From the NCBI GenBank assembly GCA_903926205.1, contig CAIYID010000087.1:1-64000 (forward strand): DNA of 64,000 bases, given 5' to 3'. Numbering within the stretch: position 1 is the first letter of the stretch; each line of letters opens with the position of its first letter. This stretch comes from an uncultured Bdellovibrionales bacterium (GTDB taxonomy: Bacteria; Bdellovibrionota; Bdellovibrionia; Bdellovibrionales; Bdellovibrionaceae). Below are positions 6,433 through 21,620 of this stretch, in pieces. Below the pieces are notes generated by a model. That model did no database searches. It was given only the letters and a program-made list of their open reading frames with translations, and was not told the origin of the DNA. Both the position numbers and the translations under genes were made by a program.

Positions 6433-6795
6433 ATGAATACTGAAGAAAAGGTCGCTACCAATCATAGTGTTAGAGATACCTTAGCGCGCAGGAAGTATCC
6501 CCGACGTTCTTTTGAGCGAGGGGTGGGTTTTCTTTATCGTGGTGAATACCAAGTGATAAATGCTTATGAAATAGGAGAAGGTGGCGCCGCTATTAATTTA
6601 CCCATGGAAGTACCTAAGGGGGCCATTGTGGTTCTTAGTTTTCAAATACCACACGGGTCTTTTGTGATTTCAATAGCGGAAGTTCGTTCTTGTTCTAAAA
6701 GTAAAGAGGGTATTTACCGAGCGGGCTGTCTTTTTCAAGACATAAAATTTGAACATAAACGGGAAATTAGAACCTTTGTCAGTGCTCGGGTTTAA
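6433..6795 (+). CDS. PilZ-domain protein, probable c-di-GMP effector
   Basis: This 120-residue cytoplasmic protein is a single PilZ domain. The N-terminal RRKYPRRSFER supplies the RxxxR c-di-GMP-binding arginines at about residues 20-28. EIGEGGAAI corresponds to the second (D/N)xSxxG motif, though in a degenerate form. The rest is a short beta-barrel ending in CLFQDIKF. With no attached output domain it probably acts on a partner protein in response to c-di-GMP. The target is not evident from context: it follows holA and converges on rpsT. A sigma-28-like element directly in front suggests co-regulation with motility genes. Confidence 0.75.
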   Translation: MNTEEKVATNHSVRDTLARRKYPRRSFERGVGFLYRGEYQVINAYEIGEGGAAINLPMEVPKGAIVVLSFQIPHGSFVISIAEVRSCSKSKEGIYRAGCLFQDIKFEHKREIRTFVSARV

Positions 6796-9057: not shown

Positions 9058-9711
9058 TCACTCTTTGTGATTAGCCATGGCTGTGTATTGATCAAATAGC
9101 TTTTGATGTTTATCGGTCTCTTTTTGCCAACGGCCCACTTCGCCTTCATATCCACGTTTTTTATTCGACCAATCTTTTTCTGTTTTCTTTAAAGTCGCTA
9201 AACGATCACTCACATCTTTTTGTTGTTTTGTTAATTGTTCTTGGCGAGTTTTCCATTGGATTTTTTCTTTACTCACCTGATCCATTTGTTGCTTATATTT
9301 AGCCACATTTTGCTGACGTTTTTGTTGGTTGTCTTTGAGTTGGGTGATGACTTTTTCAAGTTCCTTCACCTTTTGCTCCTCATTCTGAGTTTCTTTTTCT
9401 TCCGATTGAATGAGTCGACTAATTTCTTGCTCTTGTTTTTCTACCGTAGAAAGAGATGTTTGGTTGAGCTTAGCTTGTCCATTGACATCGTTGCGCTGAT
9501 TTTCAATCTGAGTTTTAGTCTTTTGTATTTCACCAAGATTTCCGTCAACAATCTTAAGATTTTTTTGATAACCATTCAGGTTTGACTTGGAATTTTCGGT
9601 GTTGGTTTTTAGTCGATCAAGACCTTCTTGTGCTGTCACTTGTGCCAAGACGGGTTGAGCGAAAATGGTAAAAAGTAAGATTCCAAAGTGAGGGATAATT
9701 GTGTTTTTCAT
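9058..9711 (-). CDS. Exported coiled-coil protein, last gene of the gliding-type operon
   Basis: I do not recognise a family. From the ATG at 9711 the 217-residue product has a signal peptide (MKNTIIPHFG... with a likely cleavage after QPVLA). The mature part is almost all coiled coil, rich in Gln, Lys, Glu and Thr, from about residue 30 to 200. It is probably periplasmic. It follows the 708-residue TPR gene by about 30 bases and is the promoter-distal gene of the minus-strand operon beginning at 20645. A structural spacer or scaffold for the envelope machine is an inference from position. Confidence 0.6.
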   Translation of the reverse strand: MKNTIIPHFGILLFTIFAQPVLAQVTAQEGLDRLKTNTENSKSNLNGYQKNLKIVDGNLGEIQKTKTQIENQRNDVNGQAKLNQTSLSTVEKQEQEISRLIQSEEKETQNEEQKVKELEKVITQLKDNQQKRQQNVAKYKQQMDQVSKEKIQWKTRQEQLTKQQKDVSDRLATLKKTEKDWSNKKRGYEGEVGRWQKETDKHQKLFDQYTAMANHKE

Positions 9712-9742
9712 AAGAGGTCCTTTCAATAAATTCTATAAAAAA

Positions 9743-11869
9743 TTAATTCTGTGTTACTTTATCATCTTTGGGGCAGACATTTTTAAGACTACTTCGGTAG
9801 TGACCCAATTCGTCTTCCCAAACTTCGCCTTTAAAGTCCCATTTCAAAGCTTTGTGATCTTGCACTTTGAGTGCCTCACGGTCTTTGTCATTGATTTCCC
9901 CGCCACCTAACTGAAAGCGCAGATGTTCTCCCGCGCCGGAATAAAGTTCATAGCGTAAGACTTCTGCTTGATCGAGAGACTTAGTTAATGCGGCCAGCAT
10001 TTCTTCAAAATGAAGTTTGAGAGTATGAGCTGCTCGATTTTTGAATTCAATTTTTTCGGCTTCGAGTCTTTGTAGCCCTGTTGTTCGAACTTCTTTAATG
10101 GAGTTCCGAGCTCTTTTTGCAATTTGGTGCTGAGCTTTAAAGTTGACGATGGCGGCTTTTAATTGTTTGATATTTTCATCAATTTTTGTATCTGCTTTTT
10201 TATCAGCTTGTTTTTGCAAGCTGGCGATTTTTGTTTCTGCTTCATTTTGTTTTTGTAAAAGCTGTCGTTCTTGTTGAATCAATTCTAATGAAATATTGTT
10301 ATAACGCGAAATTTGATCTTCCATGGAGTTGATTTGCTTTTGCTCTTCGACAAACTCTGGATGACGAGCGATTTCATAAATGAAATTTCTGTGCAAGCCA
10401 TCGATGATTTTAAGTTGTGGGTTTTTGAAAAATGTCTTAACAGTTTCATAATATGAAAGTTCGGTTTTATTTTTTTCTTTGAATTGCTCTAGCATATCTT
10501 TCATAGGTAGATATCGATTATTCAAAGAAACAACCACCTTCGCCCCGTCGCCGAATTGACAAAGGTTCAAGTATCCAACGGCGCGGGCAACATAGGATTC
10601 AGGAGCAAAAGCATTTTTGAAAAAGTCAGTGTGTAGGGTGTACATATTTCCGGCCGCACCTTCGTAATCTTCGGTCAGGATTTGCGCCCAAGCTTGTTCC
10701 ACCATTGCTTGCATCCAAAGAGGTGTGCTTTTGCTGACAAGAAGGTAAGATTGGAAAGCTTCCTTGTATTGTCCTTTTTGGAATTGTAATCGAGCCAGTG
10801 TTAATGCCGCCACTGATTTTAATTCAGTGTCTGGTGCTGTTTTTTCTAAACTCTGAACGGCTTCGTTCATCAGAACTTCAGCTTCGTTTAATTTGCCGGA
10901 ACGATAAAGAATTAAACCTCGTAAAAATTTTCCAGAACTAAGAAGCGGTGAACCGTCTTTGATTTCCTCTGCTGCCGCCATGGCTTCGGTGAGATTTCCT
11001 TTATTAATGTAGTAACGAGCCCGATTGATCTGAAATTGATCAGCCCCTGATAACTCGAAATTTAATTCATCTATTTTTGCATCAAGAGCTGGAATAATAG
11101 CAAATTCACCTTCTCGGGAGTTTCTCGCTAAACTTTCTAAAGCGCGTTTTTTCCACTCTTTAGAACCTTCTTTAAGAATTTTCAGCATATAAGTTTTGTG
11201 ATCATTTAAAAGTCCCAAAGCTAATGCTGCACGGCCAAAATGATAAAGTCCCTCGAATTTCAGTTCTTTTCCTTCGGTCATTACTTCCGCTAAAAGTCCT
11301 ATCGACAATTGATAGGATTTTTGAAAATCTAATAGAATAATAGCTTGCAATAATTTTTCTTCGGGAGAGGATAATGTGGCGATTTTAATTTCTTTAGTTT
11401 CTGGCTCAATCAAAGCTGGGTCAGCTATTTCTTTTAAAGTTTTAACTTCGGGAGTTTTAAAATTTGGATCAATTTTTACTATGTCTTTAACAACAGCAAA
11501 AGCCGCGAATTGAGGTTTTATAAAATTTTTAATATCGACAATTTTAGGAGAAACTTCGGGATGAAACGGGGCGAGCTGAACAGCTTTCGGAATTTCTTCA
11601 CGGTTCACTTTTAAATTCGTGGCTTCGAGTTGAGGTTCTTCTCCAATATTTAACTTAGGAACTTCCTTTTTTTTAGAACCTTTTGAAACCATATTGTAAC
11701 TGGGAATACCAGATTTTTTAACGGACATTTCTTTTCCCGGAGAACTTCCTGGGGATTTAATATTCAGATCCCCTGCTAGAGCGGGGAGTGTAAAAAGTCC
11801 TGCTGCGATAAGAAGAGCGACACCCAGCGAAGCTGGTTCTTTAATTGTAAGTCTTGGTTGCTTTAACAT
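9743..11869 (-). CDS. Exported TPR protein of the gliding-type cluster (GltE/AglT-like)
   Basis: This 708-residue protein has an N-terminal signal segment (residues about 15-32, ending ALAGD) and a long helical body. Repeated A...L...G....A patterns between about 190 and 450 are typical of tetratricopeptide repeats, for example LTLARLQFQKGQYKEAFQSY. A coiled-coil region follows at about 520-640. It is likely periplasmic or outer-membrane-associated. In Myxococcus the Glt complex contains TPR proteins next to an FHA/TonB-like protein and a beta-barrel; the same neighbours are present here. The specific equivalence to GltE/AglT is an inference from order and architecture, not from a sequence comparison. 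Confidence 0.6.
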   Translation of the reverse strand: MLKQPRLTIKEPASLGVALLIAAGLFTLPALAGDLNIKSPGSSPGKEMSVKKSGIPSYNMVSKGSKKKEVPKLNIGEEPQLEATNLKVNREEIPKAVQLAPFHPEVSPKIVDIKNFIKPQFAAFAVVKDIVKIDPNFKTPEVKTLKEIADPALIEPETKEIKIATLSSPEEKLLQAIILLDFQKSYQLSIGLLAEVMTEGKELKFEGLYHFGRAALALGLLNDHKTYMLKILKEGSKEWKKRALESLARNSREGEFAIIPALDAKIDELNFELSGADQFQINRARYYINKGNLTEAMAAAEEIKDGSPLLSSGKFLRGLILYRSGKLNEAEVLMNEAVQSLEKTAPDTELKSVAALTLARLQFQKGQYKEAFQSYLLVSKSTPLWMQAMVEQAWAQILTEDYEGAAGNMYTLHTDFFKNAFAPESYVARAVGYLNLCQFGDGAKVVVSLNNRYLPMKDMLEQFKEKNKTELSYYETVKTFFKNPQLKIIDGLHRNFIYEIARHPEFVEEQKQINSMEDQISRYNNISLELIQQERQLLQKQNEAETKIASLQKQADKKADTKIDENIKQLKAAIVNFKAQHQIAKRARNSIKEVRTTGLQRLEAEKIEFKNRAAHTLKLHFEEMLAALTKSLDQAEVLRYELYSGAGEHLRFQLGGGEINDKDREALKVQDHKALKWDFKGEVWEDELGHYRSSLKNVCPKDDKVTQN

Positions 11870-11908
11870 AAAATCCTCCGCAAGGGTTTTTTAAACCTCT
11901 AGCGCTGT

Positions 11909-12691
11909 TTAGTGAAAGTAAGTAAATCCTAATAAGAAAGTGGTGTCCTGTTGCGATTGGTTCCCAATATCGCTTGAGGGGTGTCCTGCTGGGTTATAGT
12001 AAACTAAATCTTCAGTGCTGAATTTATTTTTGATATCCAGACGAAAGGCCCAGTTTCTGTGGAAAAAAACATTCGCAGTCACATCGACGTTAAATCCCAC
12101 GACTCCGCGACTAACAGCTCCTGTCGTGATTTGATTTTGATAATTGAGACTTCCTAAGCCTGCCGCAAATTGTAAGTCAAAATACCAAATGGCTTTTTCC
12201 ATCACGCTCATTTTAGCGTACATCGGAACCCACATAAAATTCACCGAAGTGTAGTTTAAAAATTTATTATAGTTCGGTGTTACACCATTTCCAGATTTCA
12301 GTTGATTCACAGTCGGACCATCGGATAGAGCTCCAGTTTCACGAGCCATTTCGACTCCCCAGCGTTCACTGAAATAATATCCTGCTGCAAAATTATTCAT
12401 TTGTCCCATGCTTGCTGTTGAAAAGGAGTCATTGATTAAATTTCCAAAACTGCCACTTAAAAACCAACGATTGGCTTTTGTATAAGTTCGATTTTGAACC
12501 ACCGAGAAATCACTATCCTTTGCCGCCCAATATTTATCTTCGAGTTGTTTGAGGTCTAGTTTATCCGAGTCACCGCCACCAGACTCTTTACTAACTGTAG
12601 CACCAGATTTTGTGTTGCTGGATTTTGCTTCTTCAGCAACGGCCCTCATTCCAAAATAGCAGAGTGCAAAGATGACAAATATTTTACTCAT
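11909..12691 (-). CDS. Outer-membrane beta-barrel protein of the gliding-type cluster
   Basis: The 260-residue product starts with a signal peptide (MSKIFVIFALCYFGMRAVA), then a Ser/Gly-rich linker. From about residue 80 come alternating hydrophobic strands such as WFLSGSFGNLI, NFAAGYYFSERWGVEMARE, AIWYFDLQFAAGLGS and TTFLLGFTYFH. The last residue class and the overall pattern fit a small 8-strand outer-membrane barrel (OmpA/OMP_b-brl type). The start has a GGGGGA ribosome site. It sits between the FHA/TonB-like gene and the TPR gene, as a GltH-like barrel would in a gliding complex. The cargo or adhesin role is unknown. Confidence 0.65.
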   Translation of the reverse strand: MSKIFVIFALCYFGMRAVAEEAKSSNTKSGATVSKESGGGDSDKLDLKQLEDKYWAAKDSDFSVVQNRTYTKANRWFLSGSFGNLINDSFSTASMGQMNNFAAGYYFSERWGVEMARETGALSDGPTVNQLKSGNGVTPNYNKFLNYTSVNFMWVPMYAKMSVMEKAIWYFDLQFAAGLGSLNYQNQITTGAVSRGVVGFNVDVTANVFFHRNWAFRLDIKNKFSTEDLVYYNPAGHPSSDIGNQSQQDTTFLLGFTYFH

Positions 12692-12717
12692 AGAATCCCC
12701 CTAGCAGTTGTTGTTAA

Positions 12718-14169
12718 TCAGTTGGTGCTCTTAAAGAGGAACGGGTAGGTCACGTTGACCTTTGTTCCGCCTTCGGGAGCGGGAAATTTCCAGCGGGCGA
12801 CCTTTTGCAAGATACATCCCTCAACCGTTGCATTTCTTAATGTCGAGTCCCCGATGCGTTGTGTTTCAACTTCACCTTTTGGACCAATTGTAAAGCGCAC
12901 CGCAACTTTTCCGTAGAGATCTCGGCTTGAAGATAACTGACGTTCGTAGCAATAAAGAATTTGTCCAAGTTGGCTGCGAATGACTCCGGCGATAATTTCT
13001 CGATCAAGACCACCCACTATTTCGCTCTCGTCTTCAAGTAATTCTGCACCACCAGTGCCGGTTTTGCCTGTGGTTAAATTGCCCATGCCATTAACACCTT
13101 TTCCACCAGCAATTCCATTGGTAGAAACTTTGATACTGGTGCCTTGGCTTTCGGAGCCCCAATCTTTCCCGCTCTTGTCACTGCTGCCAAGTGCGGCTAA
13201 TGCTCTGCCAGAGGGAGCAGTGCCAGCCTCTATGCCACTGGTTACAATGATATGAGAGGATTTTGCTACAGAGTTAGAAACTTTGCCAAGTAATTGGCTC
13301 AAACGACTAGTTCCGCCCAAAGATCGAATAGCAGAAAAAGCACTATTTTGTTGCTTGCCACCAGCTGCTGCGGACGGTTCTGGTGAAATTTCAACAACTT
13401 TATGAGTCGTACTCACATGTTTTTTCTTCGGAGGCGCTAATTTCATTTGTCGGTATTCCGCCGGAGGCAAAGTGGAAACAGCCACCTCTCCTGCGTTTTG
13501 GGAGTTAGGTGAAAGTAAAAAAAGTGTCGACAAGAACATGGCTCCAATAAGAGTCGCAATCAGTGGAGCTTTTTCTTCTTTAGTTAAGTGCAAATTACCG
13601 TTAAATTTTTTTAATTGCAAATCAGAGGCCAGATAAATAGTACGCTGACTGATCTGTAATAGGCCGACTTCGGCATTGACCCACCCTTGCGAATTTTGGG
13701 CGCGCAATTTATTTCGACCTACATCATAGGAAGAGACGAAATCATGTCCAAGTGGAACCAAGCGAGTTTCTAAAAGCTGAGCTCCCTTTGTGACTGTAAA
13801 AAGTTGGTAAGGGACTTGATTCTCGAGAGTTTTTTCCATTGAAAACTGTTCCAACGAATTCACAATATTTTTGCGATCATCAAATGGTTTGGCAGTTACG
13901 ATAGTGGATCCAATTTTTAATTCGGTGGATTCTGTAAGAGAGATGATGATCGGGTCATTTTGGTTTTCATGATTCAAATTGAGGCTAACAAATTTCCACT
14001 GGCCCTCTTGATATTCAAAATAGCCGTGAATGCCTCGAACGGAAGTGTCAGGAGACCGTAAATCGGCATGTTTGGATGAGCCAAAAGTCAGTGCTCGACC
14101 TTCAGCACGAAGGCGCCAGGTTTTCAGTTGGCCTTGGGGGCCTCGCTGTTCCAGTAGCAGATTTTTCAT
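12718..14169 (-). CDS. FHA-domain, single-TM, TonB-like protein (GltG/PglI/AgmX type)
   Basis: This 483-residue protein joins three modules. Residues about 15-100 are an FHA phosphothreonine-binding domain (LTFGSSKHADLRS, TSVRGIHGYFEY). A membrane helix lies near 205-225 (LIGAMFLSTLFLLSP), and a Pro/Ser/Gly-rich periplasmic linker spans roughly 230-385. The end (EIIAGVIRSQLGQILYCYER through CILQKVARWKFPAP) is the TonB-like C-terminal domain of AgmX/PglI proteins. It would couple a cytoplasmic signal and the inner-membrane motor to the outer membrane. I use the ATG at 14169 because GGAGA lies five bases upstream. This domain order is the strongest evidence that the operon is a Glt-type machine. 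Confidence 0.82.
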   Translation of the reverse strand: MKNLLLEQRGPQGQLKTWRLRAEGRALTFGSSKHADLRSPDTSVRGIHGYFEYQEGQWKFVSLNLNHENQNDPIIISLTESTELKIGSTIVTAKPFDDRKNIVNSLEQFSMEKTLENQVPYQLFTVTKGAQLLETRLVPLGHDFVSSYDVGRNKLRAQNSQGWVNAEVGLLQISQRTIYLASDLQLKKFNGNLHLTKEEKAPLIATLIGAMFLSTLFLLSPNSQNAGEVAVSTLPPAEYRQMKLAPPKKKHVSTTHKVVEISPEPSAAAGGKQQNSAFSAIRSLGGTSRLSQLLGKVSNSVAKSSHIIVTSGIEAGTAPSGRALAALGSSDKSGKDWGSESQGTSIKVSTNGIAGGKGVNGMGNLTTGKTGTGGAELLEDESEIVGGLDREIIAGVIRSQLGQILYCYERQLSSSRDLYGKVAVRFTIGPKGEVETQRIGDSTLRNATVEGCILQKVARWKFPAPEGGTKVNVTYPFLFKSTN

Positions 14170-14216
14170 GATAGTCTCCAACTCGTTGTGTGCAATTATC
14201 TTAATACTTAATCAAC

Positions 14217-14477
14217 TCAGTGAACATAGTTCGCTGAGTTGCGGATTTTCCTGTCCATGTCTTTTTGCAAATCATGCAAAGGCATGAACTTGATTCCGCG
14301 TTTTTGCACAAGGTAAGCTCCATCGGGGTTACGTATTGTTCCTTTGAGGCTAGTTTCATTGAAATTAACCTCTTGGACTTTACGTACCACTTTGTTGGTC
14401 TTTGCCTGCACCTCGGGGCTAAAAAACGAGACGCTGAGACAAACAACAAAGATCCACGAAAACTTTTTAGTTTTCAT
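14217..14477 (-). CDS. Small exported protein of the gliding-type cluster
   Basis: The product is 86 residues from the ATG at 14477, which overlaps the stop of the large TPR gene by 11 bases. It has a clear signal peptide (MKTKKFSWIFVVCLSVSFF, cleavage after VQA) and a short mature part with NFNETSLKGTIRNPDGAYLV and MPLHDLQKDMDRKI. No family is recognised. The tight overlap indicates translational coupling. In Myxococcus a small periplasmic protein (GltF) is encoded in the same kind of cluster; equivalence is only a positional guess. Confidence 0.6.
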   Translation of the reverse strand: MKTKKFSWIFVVCLSVSFFSPEVQAKTNKVVRKVQEVNFNETSLKGTIRNPDGAYLVQKRGIKFMPLHDLQKDMDRKIRNSANYVH

Positions 14478-17400
14478 TAGAACCTCCCATTGTGCCCGAA
14501 TCTCTGTCTTTTGTGCCAACGTGCTGAGTGTTCAAGACAGTTACGGATACTTTGCCATTTAAATAATCAATTTTACGTTTAACCCAATTTTTTAGATCTT
14601 CATCATTTGAATATTGAGAAGCACTTTGATAAGCCGTTTGAGCTTCTTGTTTATCAAATTTAAAAATTTCTTGCAAGCGGGCTAGTTCCAGCCACAACTC
14701 TGGCTGTTGAACTTTTTCTTTGAGATCTTTTTTCAAAATTTGAATAGCTTGGTCTGGCTCACCTTTGATGCTCGTGCATTCTGCAAGAATGGGAATTATT
14801 TTGAATATTTTTTGTTTTTTATTATCTAACTGATTCAAAAGTTCTCCCGCTGTGAGGCAATCGCCTTTGTCATAATCATTAAGTGCTTCAATGACCTGAA
14901 TTTCCTCTGCCACAAATCTTTTGTCGTTAATCTCAACAAACTCATTCAGCGCGACAGTGGGTTGATCATTCTGTAATAGCTCGCGGGCTTTATTAAAGTG
15001 CAGCACCGGATTTGAAGAATCTTTTTTGAGTGCTAAGTCATAAAGCCAAATGGCTTTAGCTGATTCATTATTTCCTGACGCTGCCAACGCCATATAAAAT
15101 AATCCCTGTGGATCTTTCACTGATACTTTAACCATTTGTTCTGCTACTTTTTGTAAATTATGCCAAGATTTTTTTACAGCACAACTATGCGCGAGCTTAA
15201 CCAGAGCAGAGAATTCTTTGGATAAATCGGAAGCATTGATGACGCAAGTCTCTTGTTTAGAACCTTCGTAGCGTTGCCATTTTTCATTTGAACCGACCGT
15301 GAGTGCATCTGGAATATAGATAGAGAATTGAATATTGGAAGAAAGTTTTGCTCTTGGCTTGATAGTTTCAGAGCTTGGAGTACTTAAATATTCATTCTCT
15401 TGTTGGCCATGCACATTTGTTGCTAATGATGATACGCTTGAAATTCTTTTTTGAATTTCATCGAAACGCTCAGTGACTGGCTTTAAAATTTTTGTTAATT
15501 CGACATGAAGAGCTTTAGATTCTTCGGGTTTTAGCTCAGTTTTCAAAGTAGGACTAGAGACAGACGAAATAAAGTTTTGATATATTCGTGACAAACCCAT
15601 CAAGGCTTGCAATTGAGTTTCCGGTTTCTCCGCCAATTTTTCTCCTAAAGAATAGGCTTGCTGAGCTTTATCAAGTTTTTCAGCTTTAAGAGACAGAACC
15701 AGTGAAAGATGCTCTAGATTAGTTTTTAGGCTTTGTGTAACAAGCTCCTGTTCAAGAACACGACCCCGAACCACGTGAGCTCTTGCGCGGGCATCTTTTG
15801 AACCACTGGTGTTATTTATGATGGATTTTGTCGAATTAAAGGCCTCAACCCATTTGCGTTGAGCAATTAAGCTTTCGGATAACTTGACTTGCATAAGTGA
15901 GTGGTAGGGTTCCACACCAGTGTTCAAGATTTTATTTTCTATGCTCTTATATTCAGAAGAGTTTTCTTTTCCTTTAAAGGTGGCCAAAATTTGAGTGTAC
16001 ACCCGGGATTGATTTTCTTTTGAATTGTCCGTTAGCAAACGATTTAATTCTTTTCGAGCCAATTCTTCTTTACCCATCAACGTAAATAAATCCACAGTGG
16101 CTTCAATGTACTGAATTTTTTCTTTGCCTTCACTCATTTGACTCAGAGTTTGGAGTGTGGTCGCGGCCTCGGGCAGAAAGCCATTGTCAGCATAGGTTTT
16201 AGCCGCTTCTTTCAAGGTTTCTTTATTTTTGGCTTCTTTTGGATATTGATGAACATACTGTAAGCTCATATCCGCAGCTTCTACAGAATGTCCGGTGGCA
16301 AAGGCGATGGATAAAGACTGCCATAGAGCATCTTTTGCCAGAGAAGAGTTGCTATGATCAGAGGAAAATTGAGATAATTTTTTTGAGATTTGCCATTTTT
16401 GCTCTTCATTTTTTGCTGTACTAAGATCGGCTTGTACATTTGCAAACTTGGCTTCTTCTAATATTCTTTCTAGCTCCGCAATTCTTGCGGGGTCTTGTTT
16501 TGATTTCAAAAGCTCACTGGCTAGAGAAAAAATCTGCGAATAATCCTTGCGCGAATTTAAAATGTCCATTTCTAAATCTTCGGCTTTACGTTTGAACTCA
16601 AGAGAGGTTTTATCTGTTGTCGTCGTCATAGCGAGCGGCTTCAGCCAAGCTTCGGCCTCATTAAATTTTGTCATTTCATAGTAAGTAAAACCAATTTTAA
16701 ATTTTACTTGTGCCGCATTCATGCCATGAGGATTTTTAGCTAAATATTTTTCTGATAATCGAATAATGTTCTGTTTGTCTTTCCCACTGTCTTTAGCGGC
16801 AGATTTTTCAGCAGAAACCAGTGCTGCATAACTTGAATCATGCAAGATGACAGTGTCCAGGGTACTATTACTTACAAGTTCGTATTGTTCGGAAGCGTGG
16901 GAGTAATCGCCCAGTTGATAAAGCAGTTCAGCGTAAGCAAATCTTGATTTTGCATCAGGCTTTTTGGGATCATCATGTTGCAATCGAATTTCAAAAGCTT
17001 TAACGGTGTAAGCAACAATGTCTTTGTTCTGTTTGTTTTTTTGCCAAATATCCCACCATTTTTTTGTTAACTCCATATTGGTTTTTGGAAAATCAATATC
17101 ACAAGTTTGAGCAACAGATTTTTGATTAATGGCTCTATATTTAGAACTTGGTTCACAGAGACGAGAAACTTCTTCTAAATGTTCGATCACTTTAGTTCGT
17201 GTTTTTGTGGCTTCGTAAGACTCGCAAAGGGCTAATTCTACCGAAATGCGGGCAGGGTGCTCAGAATGATGAGCGATAAATTCTGGTAAAAATATAGCAA
17301 CTTCTTTATCGCGGCTGTGACTTTGATAGAGATGGGTCAAGTTCAACATTACGTCGCCCATTTCTTCTGTGGTGCAAAGTCCAGAAAAGAATGAGTAAGC

Positions 17401-18258
17401 TTTGTCAGCCGTGTAAGCATCTCCGAAAAATAGCCCTAAATCGCGAACAGCTTCCATTCGCAGGTTATGATTTATTCTCGAGTCTGTTAAATTTCCAGGC
17501 TCAAAATATCGTACGACTTTGATCAGTTTTTCAATCGCTTTTTCATTTTGTTTCAAATTATAGAGTGTCCAGGCTGCTTTATATAAGCCATAAGAGTAGA
17601 CTCGAGCTTTTGGATATTTTTCGACAGCTTTGAAATGTTCCAGAGCAGGGTTTAAGCGATGAGCATCGTAATTCATTTCTCCCAAAGCAAGTTCCGCATC
17701 CGGGAGAAGCGGGGAGTTCGGAAATTGGTTAACTAGTTTGTTGTACTTGTTTTCTGCTTTGCTAATTTCATTTAATTGTTGATGAGCAAAGGCGCAGTTA
17801 AATAAAACCGAATCCATTTCTTCGAATTTTGGCCACTGTTTTTCTATACGCTCATAAATAGCAATAGCATCTCGTAAGTATTGAGATGCTGACTGGCTAC
17901 GAATAAGTGGTGCAACAAACCTGGCTGCGGAATCTGAATCGCGGTACAAGTCAAAAAAACGACCAGACTTCGCACGACGCATGTAAAGTTCTGCCAATCG
18001 ATTCCAGAGGGAAGTTTCTTCTGGCTGGCCCTTGCGTTTTTCAATGATCTTTTTTAAAGAGGTCAGGGCTTCATTTTCTGTTTTACTGATCATCACTTCA
18101 GTTTGTACTGCTTTGACTTGATTTTGATCTTCGTTGGAACCATTCAGGCGAATTTCCGGTAACGCACCCTTTGGTGAATCGCTATCGCGAGCATCCACCG
18201 CTTGAGCTTCTGGAAGAAAGAGTAAAGCTAAAATTAAAAGGACCAAAGGGGTTTTCAA
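14467..18258 (-). CDS. Giant exported TPR protein of the gliding-type cluster (GltD/AgmU-like)
   Basis: I start this gene at a TTG (18258-18256) because AGGAG lies just upstream and translation from there gives a perfect signal peptide, MKTPLVLLILALLFLPEAQA. The 1263-residue protein is then mostly tetratricopeptide-like repeats from about residue 90 to 720 and again from about 1070 to 1250 (for example GLFYMALAASGNNESAKAIW). The Myxococcus gliding protein AgmU/GltD is a TPR protein of similar size located in the periplasm. Here the gene follows the second TolR gene directly, consistent with a scaffold linking motor and envelope. The assignment to GltD is inferred from size, repeats and gene order. 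Confidence 0.68.
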   Translation of the reverse strand: MKTPLVLLILALLFLPEAQAVDARDSDSPKGALPEIRLNGSNEDQNQVKAVQTEVMISKTENEALTSLKKIIEKRKGQPEETSLWNRLAELYMRRAKSGRFFDLYRDSDSAARFVAPLIRSQSASQYLRDAIAIYERIEKQWPKFEEMDSVLFNCAFAHQQLNEISKAENKYNKLVNQFPNSPLLPDAELALGEMNYDAHRLNPALEHFKAVEKYPKARVYSYGLYKAAWTLYNLKQNEKAIEKLIKVVRYFEPGNLTDSRINHNLRMEAVRDLGLFFGDAYTADKAYSFFSGLCTTEEMGDVMLNLTHLYQSHSRDKEVAIFLPEFIAHHSEHPARISVELALCESYEATKTRTKVIEHLEEVSRLCEPSSKYRAINQKSVAQTCDIDFPKTNMELTKKWWDIWQKNKQNKDIVAYTVKAFEIRLQHDDPKKPDAKSRFAYAELLYQLGDYSHASEQYELVSNSTLDTVILHDSSYAALVSAEKSAAKDSGKDKQNIIRLSEKYLAKNPHGMNAAQVKFKIGFTYYEMTKFNEAEAWLKPLAMTTTTDKTSLEFKRKAEDLEMDILNSRKDYSQIFSLASELLKSKQDPARIAELERILEEAKFANVQADLSTAKNEEQKWQISKKLSQFSSDHSNSSLAKDALWQSLSIAFATGHSVEAADMSLQYVHQYPKEAKNKETLKEAAKTYADNGFLPEAATTLQTLSQMSEGKEKIQYIEATVDLFTLMGKEELARKELNRLLTDNSKENQSRVYTQILATFKGKENSSEYKSIENKILNTGVEPYHSLMQVKLSESLIAQRKWVEAFNSTKSIINNTSGSKDARARAHVVRGRVLEQELVTQSLKTNLEHLSLVLSLKAEKLDKAQQAYSLGEKLAEKPETQLQALMGLSRIYQNFISSVSSPTLKTELKPEESKALHVELTKILKPVTERFDEIQKRISSVSSLATNVHGQQENEYLSTPSSETIKPRAKLSSNIQFSIYIPDALTVGSNEKWQRYEGSKQETCVINASDLSKEFSALVKLAHSCAVKKSWHNLQKVAEQMVKVSVKDPQGLFYMALAASGNNESAKAIWLYDLALKKDSSNPVLHFNKARELLQNDQPTVALNEFVEINDKRFVAEEIQVIEALNDYDKGDCLTAGELLNQLDNKKQKIFKIIPILAECTSIKGEPDQAIQILKKDLKEKVQQPELWLELARLQEIFKFDKQEAQTAYQSASQYSNDEDLKNWVKRKIDYLNGKVSVTVLNTQHVGTKDRDSGTMGGSNEN

Positions 18259-18259
18259 G

Positions 18260-18748
18260 TTATTCTCCTGCAACCGTTGCCATTTTGAGTTTAGGAAAGC
18301 CAGCCATACTCGCGGTGTACATCACTTTGCGAATAACCTGGTATGAGAGTGAAGAGTCTGCTTGCATAAGGATATTGCCTTCTTTTGCTCCTACAGTGGT
18401 CTCGGCCTTTTCTAATTTAGAAAGTTCGTTAAACAGAGGTTTAATAAAATTCATATCGTGGGAATCAATGTCCAGTTTAGAGAAATCACCGTCGTCAAGA
18501 CTGGCAATGGTTCGACCATCGAGTTTCAACTCTTTTCGTGACAATGAAACACTCATTGTTTTTGGTGGAGTGATTTCGATATTTGAAACTGGCAAATTGA
18601 TATCTTTTTCTGGAATGACTTGCATATCAGAGGTTGAATAAGTTTGGAGTAAGAAGACCAACATGATCGTAAACATATCTGTCATCGAAGTGATATTTAA
18701 GGCGAAGGTCGAATTCTGAGCTTTGAGTTTAAATCTTGAACGTCTCAT
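18260..18748 (-). CDS. ExbD/TolR-family motor subunit with membrane Asp
   Basis: This 162-residue protein has a short basic N-terminus, one membrane helix (about residues 15-38) and a periplasmic domain, as in ExbD/TolR/AglS. The helix reads NITSMTDMFTIMLVFLL and keeps the proton-channel aspartate (Asp24) that is essential in TolR-type motors. It lies 10 bases downstream of a second TolR-like gene and two genes after TolQ, the usual composition of the Myxococcus AglRQS gliding motor. It would convert proton flow into work on the periplasmic partners. Confidence 0.85.
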   Translation of the reverse strand: MRRSRFKLKAQNSTFALNITSMTDMFTIMLVFLLQTYSTSDMQVIPEKDINLPVSNIEITPPKTMSVSLSRKELKLDGRTIASLDDGDFSKLDIDSHDMNFIKPLFNELSKLEKAETTVGAKEGNILMQADSSLSYQVIRKVMYTASMAGFPKLKMATVAGE

Positions 18749-18758
18749 ATATTCATCC

Positions 18759-19307
18759 TCAACCTTCCATCACGTTAACAAACACCACATCTGGAAACAT
18801 GTAGTCAGTTTCAACTTCTTTACCAGCCTTTGAATCATAAACCGGGAAGTGAGTGTTTTTGTCTCTCGCTTTTCGAGCCTCATCCATGATTTTCACAATT
18901 TCTTTGTAAGGAATATTGCCTTCGGGATTAAGTTCTACACGAAAGACTTCTGGGTTTTGAATTTTGATTTCGACAAGTTTTTGTTGTAATTGACCGTAGT
19001 TAAAAGAGCCATCAGCTTTTAAGCCAATCACTTCGATGTTTTGATTGCCGGCTTTTTCAACGATCACTCGAATCCCTGATTTTCCATTGATATCGAGCTG
19101 CACACTAGCTGAGGGCTTTTTTTCTTCTTTTTGAATGGCTTCTTTTACAACTTGAGGCAGGTCGGTTTCAATCATCATCACTTGCACAAAGGCCGATGAC
19201 ACCAAAAGCACCGGAACCAACTTGACCATGACCGCAAGAAGTGGTGCTAAATCAAGTTCGAACTCTTGGCTGAGATGATTATTTAATTTAAATCCTCTTC
19301 GTCGCAT
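18759..19307 (-). CDS. ExbD/TolR-family subunit lacking the membrane Asp
   Basis: The 182-residue protein has the ExbD/TolR layout: basic N-terminus (MRRRGFKLNN), one helix at about residues 21-42 and a periplasmic domain ending near VFVNVMEG. The helix region ELDLAPLLAVMVKLVPVLLV aligns with the family pattern I-P-L-L-D but has Ala25 where the proton-carrying Asp should be, and a Lys29 four residues later. The protein is otherwise intact and its gene is tightly packed between TolQ and the second TolR genes. It probably assembles with them as a non-protonating or differently charged subunit. This loss is directly visible in the sequence. Confidence 0.82.
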   Translation of the reverse strand: MRRRGFKLNNHLSQEFELDLAPLLAVMVKLVPVLLVSSAFVQVMMIETDLPQVVKEAIQKEEKKPSASVQLDINGKSGIRVIVEKAGNQNIEVIGLKADGSFNYGQLQQKLVEIKIQNPEVFRVELNPEGNIPYKEIVKIMDEARKARDKNTHFPVYDSKAGKEVETDYMFPDVVFVNVMEG

Positions 19308-19335
19308 TTTATACCTCTTTTATTTATCTTCTAAA

Positions 19336-20058
19336 TCATGAACTTTTTGCAGTTGGAGGCGGCGGAGTATTTGGTGTGCGGAAAGAATCTTGAGCTAAAG
19401 AATTAGGAAAAACCGCATTCTTTGTGAGCGAAGGGATATGACTCGTCGTTAAAAGTTCTGTGAGTTTACCCGTTTTCTCTGTTAATTGTTCAAGTAACTG
19501 ATTTTGACGAGACACTAAGAACGAATAGGCGACCATTGCCGGAATTGCAACCACGAGACCAAGTGCGGTCGTGTACATTGAAACGGAGATACCATGAGCA
19601 AGCATGGCTTGCTTTTGCGACGGATCTGCTTGCGATACCGCAGCGAAAGATAAGATCAGTCCATGAATTGTACCTAACAATCCTAATAAAGTAGAAACAT
19701 TGGCAAACATCGACAAATAGTGAATGCGTCGAGTGAGCAGTGGAGCGTTTTCGGCCATGGCGTTGTCGTGTGCTTGAAAAATAGTTTCATCATCACGATC
19801 CGATTTTTCCAGAATCGTTTTGAAAGCATTGGCTAAAGGTTTATCTTGAAGCTGATTGCAAAAGATCAAAGCTTCTTCTGATTTTTTTGCAAGTACTGAG
19901 GTCTGGATTCTGGTCATAAATTCTTCTACGTCCAAACTGTATCTGAAATACAGCACTCGAGATCGCTCGAATACGAGGGCGGAAGCGGCCAGTCCAACAA
20001 GTATAATGCACCAACCAACAAATCCTGCGTCATTGATAAATTGCAGAATTGAATTCAT
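19336..20058 (-). CDS. MotA/TolQ/ExbB-family motor protein (AglR-like)
   Basis: This 240-residue inner-membrane protein has three hydrophobic segments, at about 13-32, 115-138 and 155-180, with a cytoplasmic loop between the first two, as in TolQ/ExbB. The family stretch YLSMFANVSTLLGLLGTIHGLILSF and the SMYTTALGLVVAIPAM region contain the conserved small and hydroxylated residues lining the proton path. Its start overlaps the preceding stop by four bases (ATGA). With two TolR-like genes next it should form the proton-driven motor of the cluster. A general Tol-Pal or Exb role is less likely because no TolA, TolB or Pal genes are nearby. Confidence 0.88.
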   Translation of the reverse strand: MNSILQFINDAGFVGWCIILVGLAASALVFERSRVLYFRYSLDVEEFMTRIQTSVLAKKSEEALIFCNQLQDKPLANAFKTILEKSDRDDETIFQAHDNAMAENAPLLTRRIHYLSMFANVSTLLGLLGTIHGLILSFAAVSQADPSQKQAMLAHGISVSMYTTALGLVVAIPAMVAYSFLVSRQNQLLEQLTEKTGKLTELLTTSHIPSLTKNAVFPNSLAQDSFRTPNTPPPPTAKSS

Positions 20059-20645
20059 GGTTTGTCTCCTTTTGTAATAGATTCTATGTGTTTTGTAATT
20101 TGAGTTTCGCCAAACGGCTGAACTTGACTAAATTTAATGGCGTAATAAATCTGAGTGTCATGAGTTACGCGCTCTTTGACTAAACGTTTCGAAAGAACTT
20201 CACCTTTTGCATTGAAAGGTGTTTTCATATTTGTTGAACTCGGAATATGGATGGTGAGAACATCGCCGGGTAGGAGCAAAGGGTTTTCCATTAAGATGAG
20301 AGCTCCGCCAATGGAGATACTTTCTATTTTTCCCTTCCAAAATTTTTGATCATTGTGAATGTAGGCTCTCCAGTCACAAACTGCTCTTTCATGGGATCGA
20401 TGAATAAAAACTTTGGAGTTTTCATTTTTTTTCGCGAGGCTTGCAATTCGATCGGGAGAATATTCGGAAAGTTCAGCGAGAGCTCCCCAAGTTGTCATAT
20501 GTGGCGACCACACATAATCAAAACCGAATAAAGTTTTTTCTTGAAGCATGGATATCATTTGTTCGTAACTGTAAGGTCCGTACTGTGAAGAACCCTTCAG
20601 TACATGCCATTCGTTCGAAGTAGAAATTTCTAATTGTAGTCCCAT
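20055..20645 (-). CDS. GYF-PilZ two-domain protein at the head of the gliding-type operon
   Basis: The 196-residue cytoplasmic protein combines two modules. Residues about 10-60 look like a GYF_2 domain (WHVLKGSSQYGPYSYEQM, then a conserved W at the WSPHMTTWGAL segment). Residues about 80-190 look like a PilZ domain, with RSHERAVCDWRAYI and SIGGALIL as the c-di-GMP-binding motifs. It is the first gene of the operon and overlaps tolQ by four bases. In Myxococcus, GltJ/AgmX uses a cytoplasmic GYF domain for regulation of gliding. A GYF-PilZ protein here may pass c-di-GMP status to the motor (inference). A sigma-28-like promoter lies ten bases upstream. Confidence 0.7.
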   Translation of the reverse strand: MGLQLEISTSNEWHVLKGSSQYGPYSYEQMISMLQEKTLFGFDYVWSPHMTTWGALAELSEYSPDRIASLAKKNENSKVFIHRSHERAVCDWRAYIHNDQKFWKGKIESISIGGALILMENPLLLPGDVLTIHIPSSTNMKTPFNAKGEVLSKRLVKERVTHDTQIYYAIKFSQVQPFGETQITKHIESITKGDKP

Positions 20646-20934: not shown

Positions 20935-21351
20935 CTATTTTGAAATTTCCTCTTTAGCATCTTTGTAGGATTTTTCTAGTTTTTTTACGGCCGACACGAG
21001 GCCTTCATGCAAATGATTCCAGGCTTTTCCTGAAGTTTTTTTGAGTTTAGATATTTTTTGATCGATTTCACTTTGCTCTGATTTTAGATGATCTACTTTT
21101 TTAGCGATTTGACTTTGCGTTTCGGCGCTTGTTTGGCGTGCCTTTTCTCCAAGGTCATTAATTTTTTCTTTAAGTGCATTGAAGGAAGATTCAAGGTCTT
21201 CAACGACCACATCTTTTTGTTCTTTGGAATATTTTTTTACGGCCATGATAGTTTCTTTTGCTTTCTCTTTCACTTCTTCACCAGACTCAGTTGCTAGAGC
21301 CAAGCGAGGAGCTAAAATGTCTGTAAAGAAAACAAAGAGTACTAACTTCAT
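20935..21351 (-). CDS. Small exported amphipathic-helix protein
   Basis: From the ATG at 21351 the 138-residue product has a signal-like hydrophobic start (MKLVLFVFFTDILAPRLALA) and a mature part made of long amphipathic or coiled-coil helices. It is very rich in Lys, Glu, Ser and Gln (for example KAKETIMAVKKYSKEQKD and QSQIAKKVDHLKSEQSEI). The pattern is like apolipoprotein or stress-type helical proteins, but I recognise no family. It is a single gene upstream of the gliding-type operon on the same strand, separated by 289 bases. Function unknown. Confidence 0.55.
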   Translation of the reverse strand: MKLVLFVFFTDILAPRLALATESGEEVKEKAKETIMAVKKYSKEQKDVVVEDLESSFNALKEKINDLGEKARQTSAETQSQIAKKVDHLKSEQSEIDQKISKLKKTSGKAWNHLHEGLVSAVKKLEKSYKDAKEEISK

Positions 21352-21620
21352 GAGAGCGATCATAAGGCCGCCTTTTTAAAAAGACTGTAAAAACATAAAA
21401 AAATGAAGTCAAGATTCATTTAAGATTCTAGTCGGTTAGGCTTATGAGTTAGACTGAGTTAGACGGGGGTTTTATTCCCTTTGCATTGAAATAACTGAGA
21501 ATTAATGTCTCGTAAAGCTTTCTTCCTTTACCTAAAGAGTCGCTCTCGCTGGCTAAATAATTGCAAAGATCTTTGTTGGAAATTGGTAGAGAAGGTTGGT
21601 CTTTTATAAAGGAGGATGTA

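Follow-up and report, generated by a model that had tools for sequence, protein, structure and literature searches.

A conserved Bdellovibrionaceae operon for a putative Agl/Glt-type trans-envelope machine whose first TolR subunit lacks the canonical transmembrane aspartate

The ten-gene block at positions 9058-20645 of the stretch analysed here (the window, 64,000 nucleotides of contig CAIYID010000087.1 from an uncultured Bdellovibrionales bacterium) is, judged by its sequence, the ortholog of Bd1482-Bd1473 of Bdellovibrio bacteriovorus HD100, and the operon as such is already known. We consider it probable, at roughly 70%, that this block encodes a proton-driven trans-envelope machine of the Agl/Glt type whose likeliest output is a slow gliding movement over surfaces and within biofilms, by which the cell would reach or leave its prey. 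What appears to be new is a detail of the motor, namely that the first of its two TolR subunits is without the aspartate in the transmembrane helix and the second keeps it; the operon itself is on record in Bdellovibrio.

All ten open reading frames are tightly packed on the minus strand and are listed here in gene order, the GYF-PilZ gene being the first and the coiled-coil gene the last.

20055-20645 (-): GYF-PilZ cytoplasmic head protein, ortholog of Bd1482 (Pfam GYF_2 2.9e-10, PilZ 4.6e-8)
19336-20058 (-): TolQ/AglR-type motor subunit, ortholog of Bd1481 (MotA_ExbB 2.4e-26)
18759-19307 (-): TolRa, subunit in the AglQ position, ortholog of Bd1480 (ExbD 3.1e-18), without the canonical transmembrane Asp
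18260-18748 (-): TolRb, subunit in the AglS position, judged by gene order probably the ortholog of Bd1479 (ExbD 5.7e-13), with the canonical Asp24
14467-18273 (-): exported TPR protein of 1268 aa, GltD/GltE-like (TPR families of Pfam)
14217-14519 (-): small exported protein, GltF/CglF homolog (NF033764 CglF 3.1e-5)
12718-14181 (-): GltG (NF033760 1e-36; NF033768, AgmX/PglI tail, 6.9e-32, above cutoff)
11909-12691 (-): outer-membrane beta-barrel of the GltA/GltB type (TIGR04565 OMP_myx_plus 9.9e-17, above cutoff)
9743-11869 (-): GltC-like periplasmic TPR protein with a coiled coil (NF033756 GltC 1.8e-35)
9058-9726 (-): exported periplasmic coiled-coil protein with a signal-like N-terminus, orthologs at the same position

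The gaps within the block range from -53 to +39 nt, and gaps as short as these make it likely that the ten genes form one transcription unit. The first-pass annotation had described a one-strand operon with overlapping genes, and all ten reading frames were indeed found where it had placed them; its parts list of a TolQ, two TolR, TPR proteins, a small exported protein, an FHA-TM-TonB-like protein, a barrel and a coiled-coil protein was confirmed. The reading frames of GltF, GltG and the coiled-coil gene begin with TTG, which is followed within a few codons by an ATG in the same frame, and their starts have probably been called too long. With the ATG start GltF would be about 86 aa, and its relatives are 78-110 aa long.

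In HD100 the same ten genes lie in the same order on the same strand with the PilZ gene at the 5' end. The exact ten-gene order was also read in 32 of 60 related loci and is not a product of chance; many of the remaining loci are truncated, either at the end of a contig or by the ORF picker, and in a few the genes are genuinely rearranged or the motor stands alone. The GltG of the window scored 375 bits at the orthologous HD100 locus and 104.5, 94.9 and 56 bits at three others, with a further weak match of 27 bits. Since aglR is Bd1481 (PMC2277423), aglQ is Bd1480 (PMC9140294) and the PilZ gene at the 5' end is Bd1482, the block corresponds to the run from Bd1482 to Bd1473. The four main GltG-matching loci of HD100, at about 0.39, 0.79, 1.40 and 2.28 Mb, probably correspond to the published Bd0412-0420, Bd0828-0838, Bd1473-1483 and Bd2368-2377, the gene numbers being placed by proportion. 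Four tonB-like/agl operons have been published for B. bacteriovorus and Bd1473-Bd1483 is one of them (PMC2797640, PMC3169522). Thus the one-block layout that the annotation had stressed is present but it is not new, and the proposal that the operon is novel for uniting motor and scaffold in a single block was rejected on the strength of the HD100 ortholog and its three published paralogs. In the class to which the window genome belongs, a TolRa match was found in 135 of 144 genomes and was strong in 118 by our own count. Some families of the order have the motor trio alone, or the trio with PilZ and GltG only, with no other scaffold gene nearby (L163, L164, L165, L170, L172, L175).

In TolR/ExbD proteins the proton is carried by one aspartate in the membrane helix. 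In TolRa of the window this canonical site is Ala25 (codon GCG) and an aspartate, Asp19, is found six residues earlier, whereas in TolRb the canonical site is Asp24. When 57 orthologs of TolRa were compared, the canonical site was Ala, Ser or Gly in 40 and Asp in 17, and in TolRb the Asp was kept in 56 of 56 orthologs. All 24 copies of TolRa read from the Bdellovibrionaceae are Asp-less, that of HD100 (Bd1480) included, and Asp-less copies also occur in three further families of the class; the loss is therefore not an artefact of sequencing or of one genome. In three further TolQ-TolR-TolR motors of the same genome, on contigs C20, C66 and C52, both TolR proteins have Asp. Of 80 TolR-like sequences encoded near TolQ genes, at loci from many phyla, 72 have the canonical Asp; of the eight that do not, seven come from orthologs of the window operon and one, an Omnitrophica sequence, has Asn. 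The TolQ pore residues Thr130 and Thr164 are invariant in 59 sequences. We found no published report of natural Asp loss in the first TolR in a literature search that covered few subscription journals.

Both AglQ and AglS of Myxococcus have a proton-binding Asp (PMC9389320), and the D28N substitution in AglQ abolished proton conductance, paralysed the gliding machine and blocked sporulation (PMC3858216). Given this effect of D28N, an Asp-less subunit in the AglQ position might mean an altered or lost drive. Since TolRa is Asp-less, TolRb keeps its Asp and the matching AglQ substitution paralyses Myxococcus, the operon may encode an asymmetric motor with a single proton site. This is read most simply as a mixed axle that has a single proton site, the alternative being a displaced site. 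We propose tentatively, rating it somewhat below even odds, that much of the class has an asymmetric stator in which a TolQ pentamer surrounds one proton-carrying and one Asp-less TolR, which would be a natural single-site 5:2 rotary motor. It is rather unlikely, in our judgement, that the proton site of TolRa has moved and not been lost, with Asp19 doing the same job and the motor keeping two proton sites. This alternative draws on a pattern with no exception in the 57 orthologs: the 40 sequences without the canonical Asp always have Asp at -6 and the 17 with it always have Asn or Ser there, the states having changed at least three times on a phylogeny (FastTree) in which the deepest branches are weak. 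However, the combination of Asp at -6 with the canonical Asp is frequent elsewhere, in 16 of the 80 TolR-like sequences; Asp at -6 is therefore not necessarily a substitute, and because of this Asp19/Ala25 was not accepted as a proven relocated proton site. Moreover, numbering on E. coli ExbD (N19 versus D25) would put D19 at the cytoplasmic edge of the helix. When TolQ columns were compared with the Asp state of TolRa no clear pore partner emerged, and the top columns look confounded by phylogeny. Our structure models are of single chains.

The homology of GltC, GltG, GltF and the barrel of the block to the Myxococcus Glt scaffold is supported by curated models. The matches of GltC, GltF and GltG to NCBIfam are all under the equivalog cutoffs and these proteins are therefore homologs, not certified equivalents; GltF is the same protein as CglF (PMC4488436). 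The FHA domain of GltG was missed by Pfam on the single sequence, and a profile of 39 GltG sequences matched FHA structures (5e-6) and, weakly, TonB. The AlphaFold model of GltG has an FHA-like domain, a helix at 201-223 (transmembrane), a disordered linker and a C-terminal domain; Foldseek with this model retrieved FHA domains and TonB C-terminal domains, and Pfam TonB_C is also found in the block. The 1268-aa TPR protein matches the TPR protein of the C20 operon of the same genome (2e-48), and in other families it is represented by two proteins of about 1000 and 300 aa. Best matches to an unrelated system would have spoken against the annotation's Agl/Glt assignment, and GltC, GltG, GltF and the barrel pointed to Glt families instead. 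The assignment, with motor and scaffold together in one likely operon headed by GYF-PilZ, was thus borne out.

The window operon has in common with the Agl-Glt system of Myxococcus xanthus a TolQ and two TolR, homologs of GltC, GltG and GltF, TPR protein(s) and an OMP_myx_plus barrel, but it differs in several respects. The genes form one block whereas in Myxococcus they lie in three loci, there is one barrel in place of several, the TolR in the AglQ position is without the Asp that is essential in Myxococcus, and a fused 1268-aa TPR protein and an extra coiled-coil protein are present. Pfam and NCBIfam searches of the ten-gene block did not find the full set of GltA, GltB and GltH-K; there was no GltJ-like TonB protein besides GltG, the GYF domain of GltJ being here fused to PilZ, and no CglB/CglD-type adhesin. 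The description of the machine as complete-looking was thus overstated. The Nfs sporulation machine of Myxococcus is comparable in having a reduced Glt-like scaffold in one cluster with no counterparts of GltI, GltJ and GltK (PMC3169522); it uses a borrowed AglRQS motor (PMC3858216), whereas the window operon encodes its own. The C20 operon shares the barrel, GltC, TPR, GltF, GltG and TolQ-TolR-TolR genes with the window operon but has two barrels, a GltE-like lipoprotein, Asp in both TolR and the motor genes last. Scores against the Myxococcus models were higher for C20 than for the window, 222 versus 127 bits for GltG and 179 versus 123 for GltC, and on these sequence scores C20 is the closer of the two to the Myxococcus machine. 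C20 is likely the counterpart of Bd0828-0838, which was considered the best gliding candidate among the four expanded core complexes of Bdellovibrio described by Luciano in 2011 (PMC3169522). A third operon of this kind is on C66 of the same genome; contig C79 (L025, 5.5 kb) carries a further glt-like operon fragment with GltC-like and TPR genes that ends at the contig edge, and C85 (L024:5931-7919) encodes a 662-aa GltG-like protein with an AgmX/PglI tail, its gene standing alone with no motor gene as a neighbour.

The top PDB match in a profile search with the GYF-PilZ protein was the GYF structure of GltJ (7z3c, 7e-7); solved structures of further GYF domains from bacteria may be scarce. 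In its AF2 model (pLDDT 90.5) the best fold match was the PilZ domain of YcgR, and the GYF domain of GltJ was matched more weakly. By Pfam, profile and fold, the zinc ribbon-GYF-transmembrane-TonB architecture of GltJ (AgmX) is not that of GYF-PilZ; the GYF domain is all they have in common, and the head protein was rejected as a GltJ. Among its orthologs RxxxR (R83, R87) and G114 are invariant, and of the PilZ motif [DN]xSxxG the Ser and the last Gly are kept and the [DN] position, which is Ser in the window protein, is not. In several other families the head protein has two GYF domains followed by PilZ. The PilZ gene Bd1482 was noted in 2012 at the 5' end of one of the four gliding operons and was proposed to receive a gliding signal from DgcA (Bd0367), which controls gliding (PMC3271064). 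A second small PilZ-domain protein (Pfam 1.2e-7) is encoded at 6433-6795 on the plus strand, about 13 kb from the operon and on the opposite strand.

In 33 of the 60 loci a lipoprotein with a vWA domain, a lipobox and a motif of the DxSxS type is encoded at or beside the operon; some families have its gene between those for PilZ and TolQ. In HD100 such a vWA/MIDAS lipoprotein gene lies directly upstream, in a place corresponding to Bd1483, for which a MIDAS motif and a lipobox have been described (PMC11003981). NCBIfam matched this lipoprotein to CglD, a lipoprotein of gliding, and to a family of MIDAS adhesins, in each case below cutoff. No vWA lipoprotein gene adjoins the operon in the window; the upstream gene, in the position that the vWA gene has in more than half of the relatives compared, is a different one (20935-21363, minus strand) for a 142-aa exported helical protein with weak apolipoprotein/YtxH-like matches only. 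The best copy in the same genome is far from the operon, on contig C46 (L180:1489-2682, 397 aa), and it too matches CglD and the MIDAS adhesins below cutoff. A vWA lipoprotein may be the grip of the window machine.

By homology, TolQ and the two TolR are a MotAB-type motor, and GltG, GltC, GltF, the TPR protein and the one barrel are relatives of the scaffold proteins through which motor force reaches the outer membrane. TolRb, with its Asp kept inside a TolQ pore with intact threonines, would do the proton-coupled work and TolRa would be its Asp-less partner in a mixed axle. The barrel may couple to a surface lipoprotein of the Bd1483 type, which would grip the substrate, and GYF-PilZ may link the motor, on its cytoplasmic side, to a signal given by a cyclic dinucleotide. 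The most likely output is slow gliding, on surfaces as well as in biofilms, which would serve in reaching or leaving prey, and gliding under PilZ-based control is the likeliest role of the window operon. Transposon insertions in Bd1481 and the neighbouring Bd1483 weaken predation on biofilms (PMC2277423), bd1480 is induced on surfaces (PMC9140294), and the same genome has a gene for an MglA-like GTPase (L190; assigned by eye), which also counts for gliding. Against it, prey invasion is normal when bd1483 is deleted (PMC11003981), and it is aglS of another operon (Bd0838, in Bd0828-0838) that has been shown to be needed for prey attachment. The preference of Luciano for Bd0828-0838, the greater likeness of C20 to the Myxococcus machine and the paralysis caused by AglQ D28N also count against it.

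As an alternative, the window machine, still of the Agl/Glt type, might move or anchor a surface polymer or an adhesin, as Nfs does in spore-coat assembly in Myxococcus, and C20, of the Bd0828-0838 type, would be the operon for gliding. There is precedent in the specialised Glt-like paralogous machines of Myxococcus (PMC3169522, PMC3858216), the four operons of HD100 differ in expression, and the Glt models fit C20 better. We nevertheless hold this to be rather unlikely, because surface induction of bd1480 and the weakened biofilm predation of the Bd1481 and Bd1483 insertion mutants speak against it and the PilZ gene at the head of the operon fits control by DgcA. That the ten genes are unrelated units which happen to be neighbours has next to no probability, for the synteny with HD100 and with 32 of the 60 loci, together with the short gaps, refutes it.

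The targets that this analysis provides are the wide conservation of the gliding-type operon, the vWA/MIDAS lipoprotein that is linked to it and is a distant relative of CglD, and the Asp-less TolR; this TolR and the linked lipoprotein are the most worth the attention of specialists. The loss of the Asp bears on the 5:2 rotary model of these motors, since it asks whether the second subunit of the axle must have a proton site, and on whether AglQ- and AglS-type subunits form a mixed dimer (PMC9389320).
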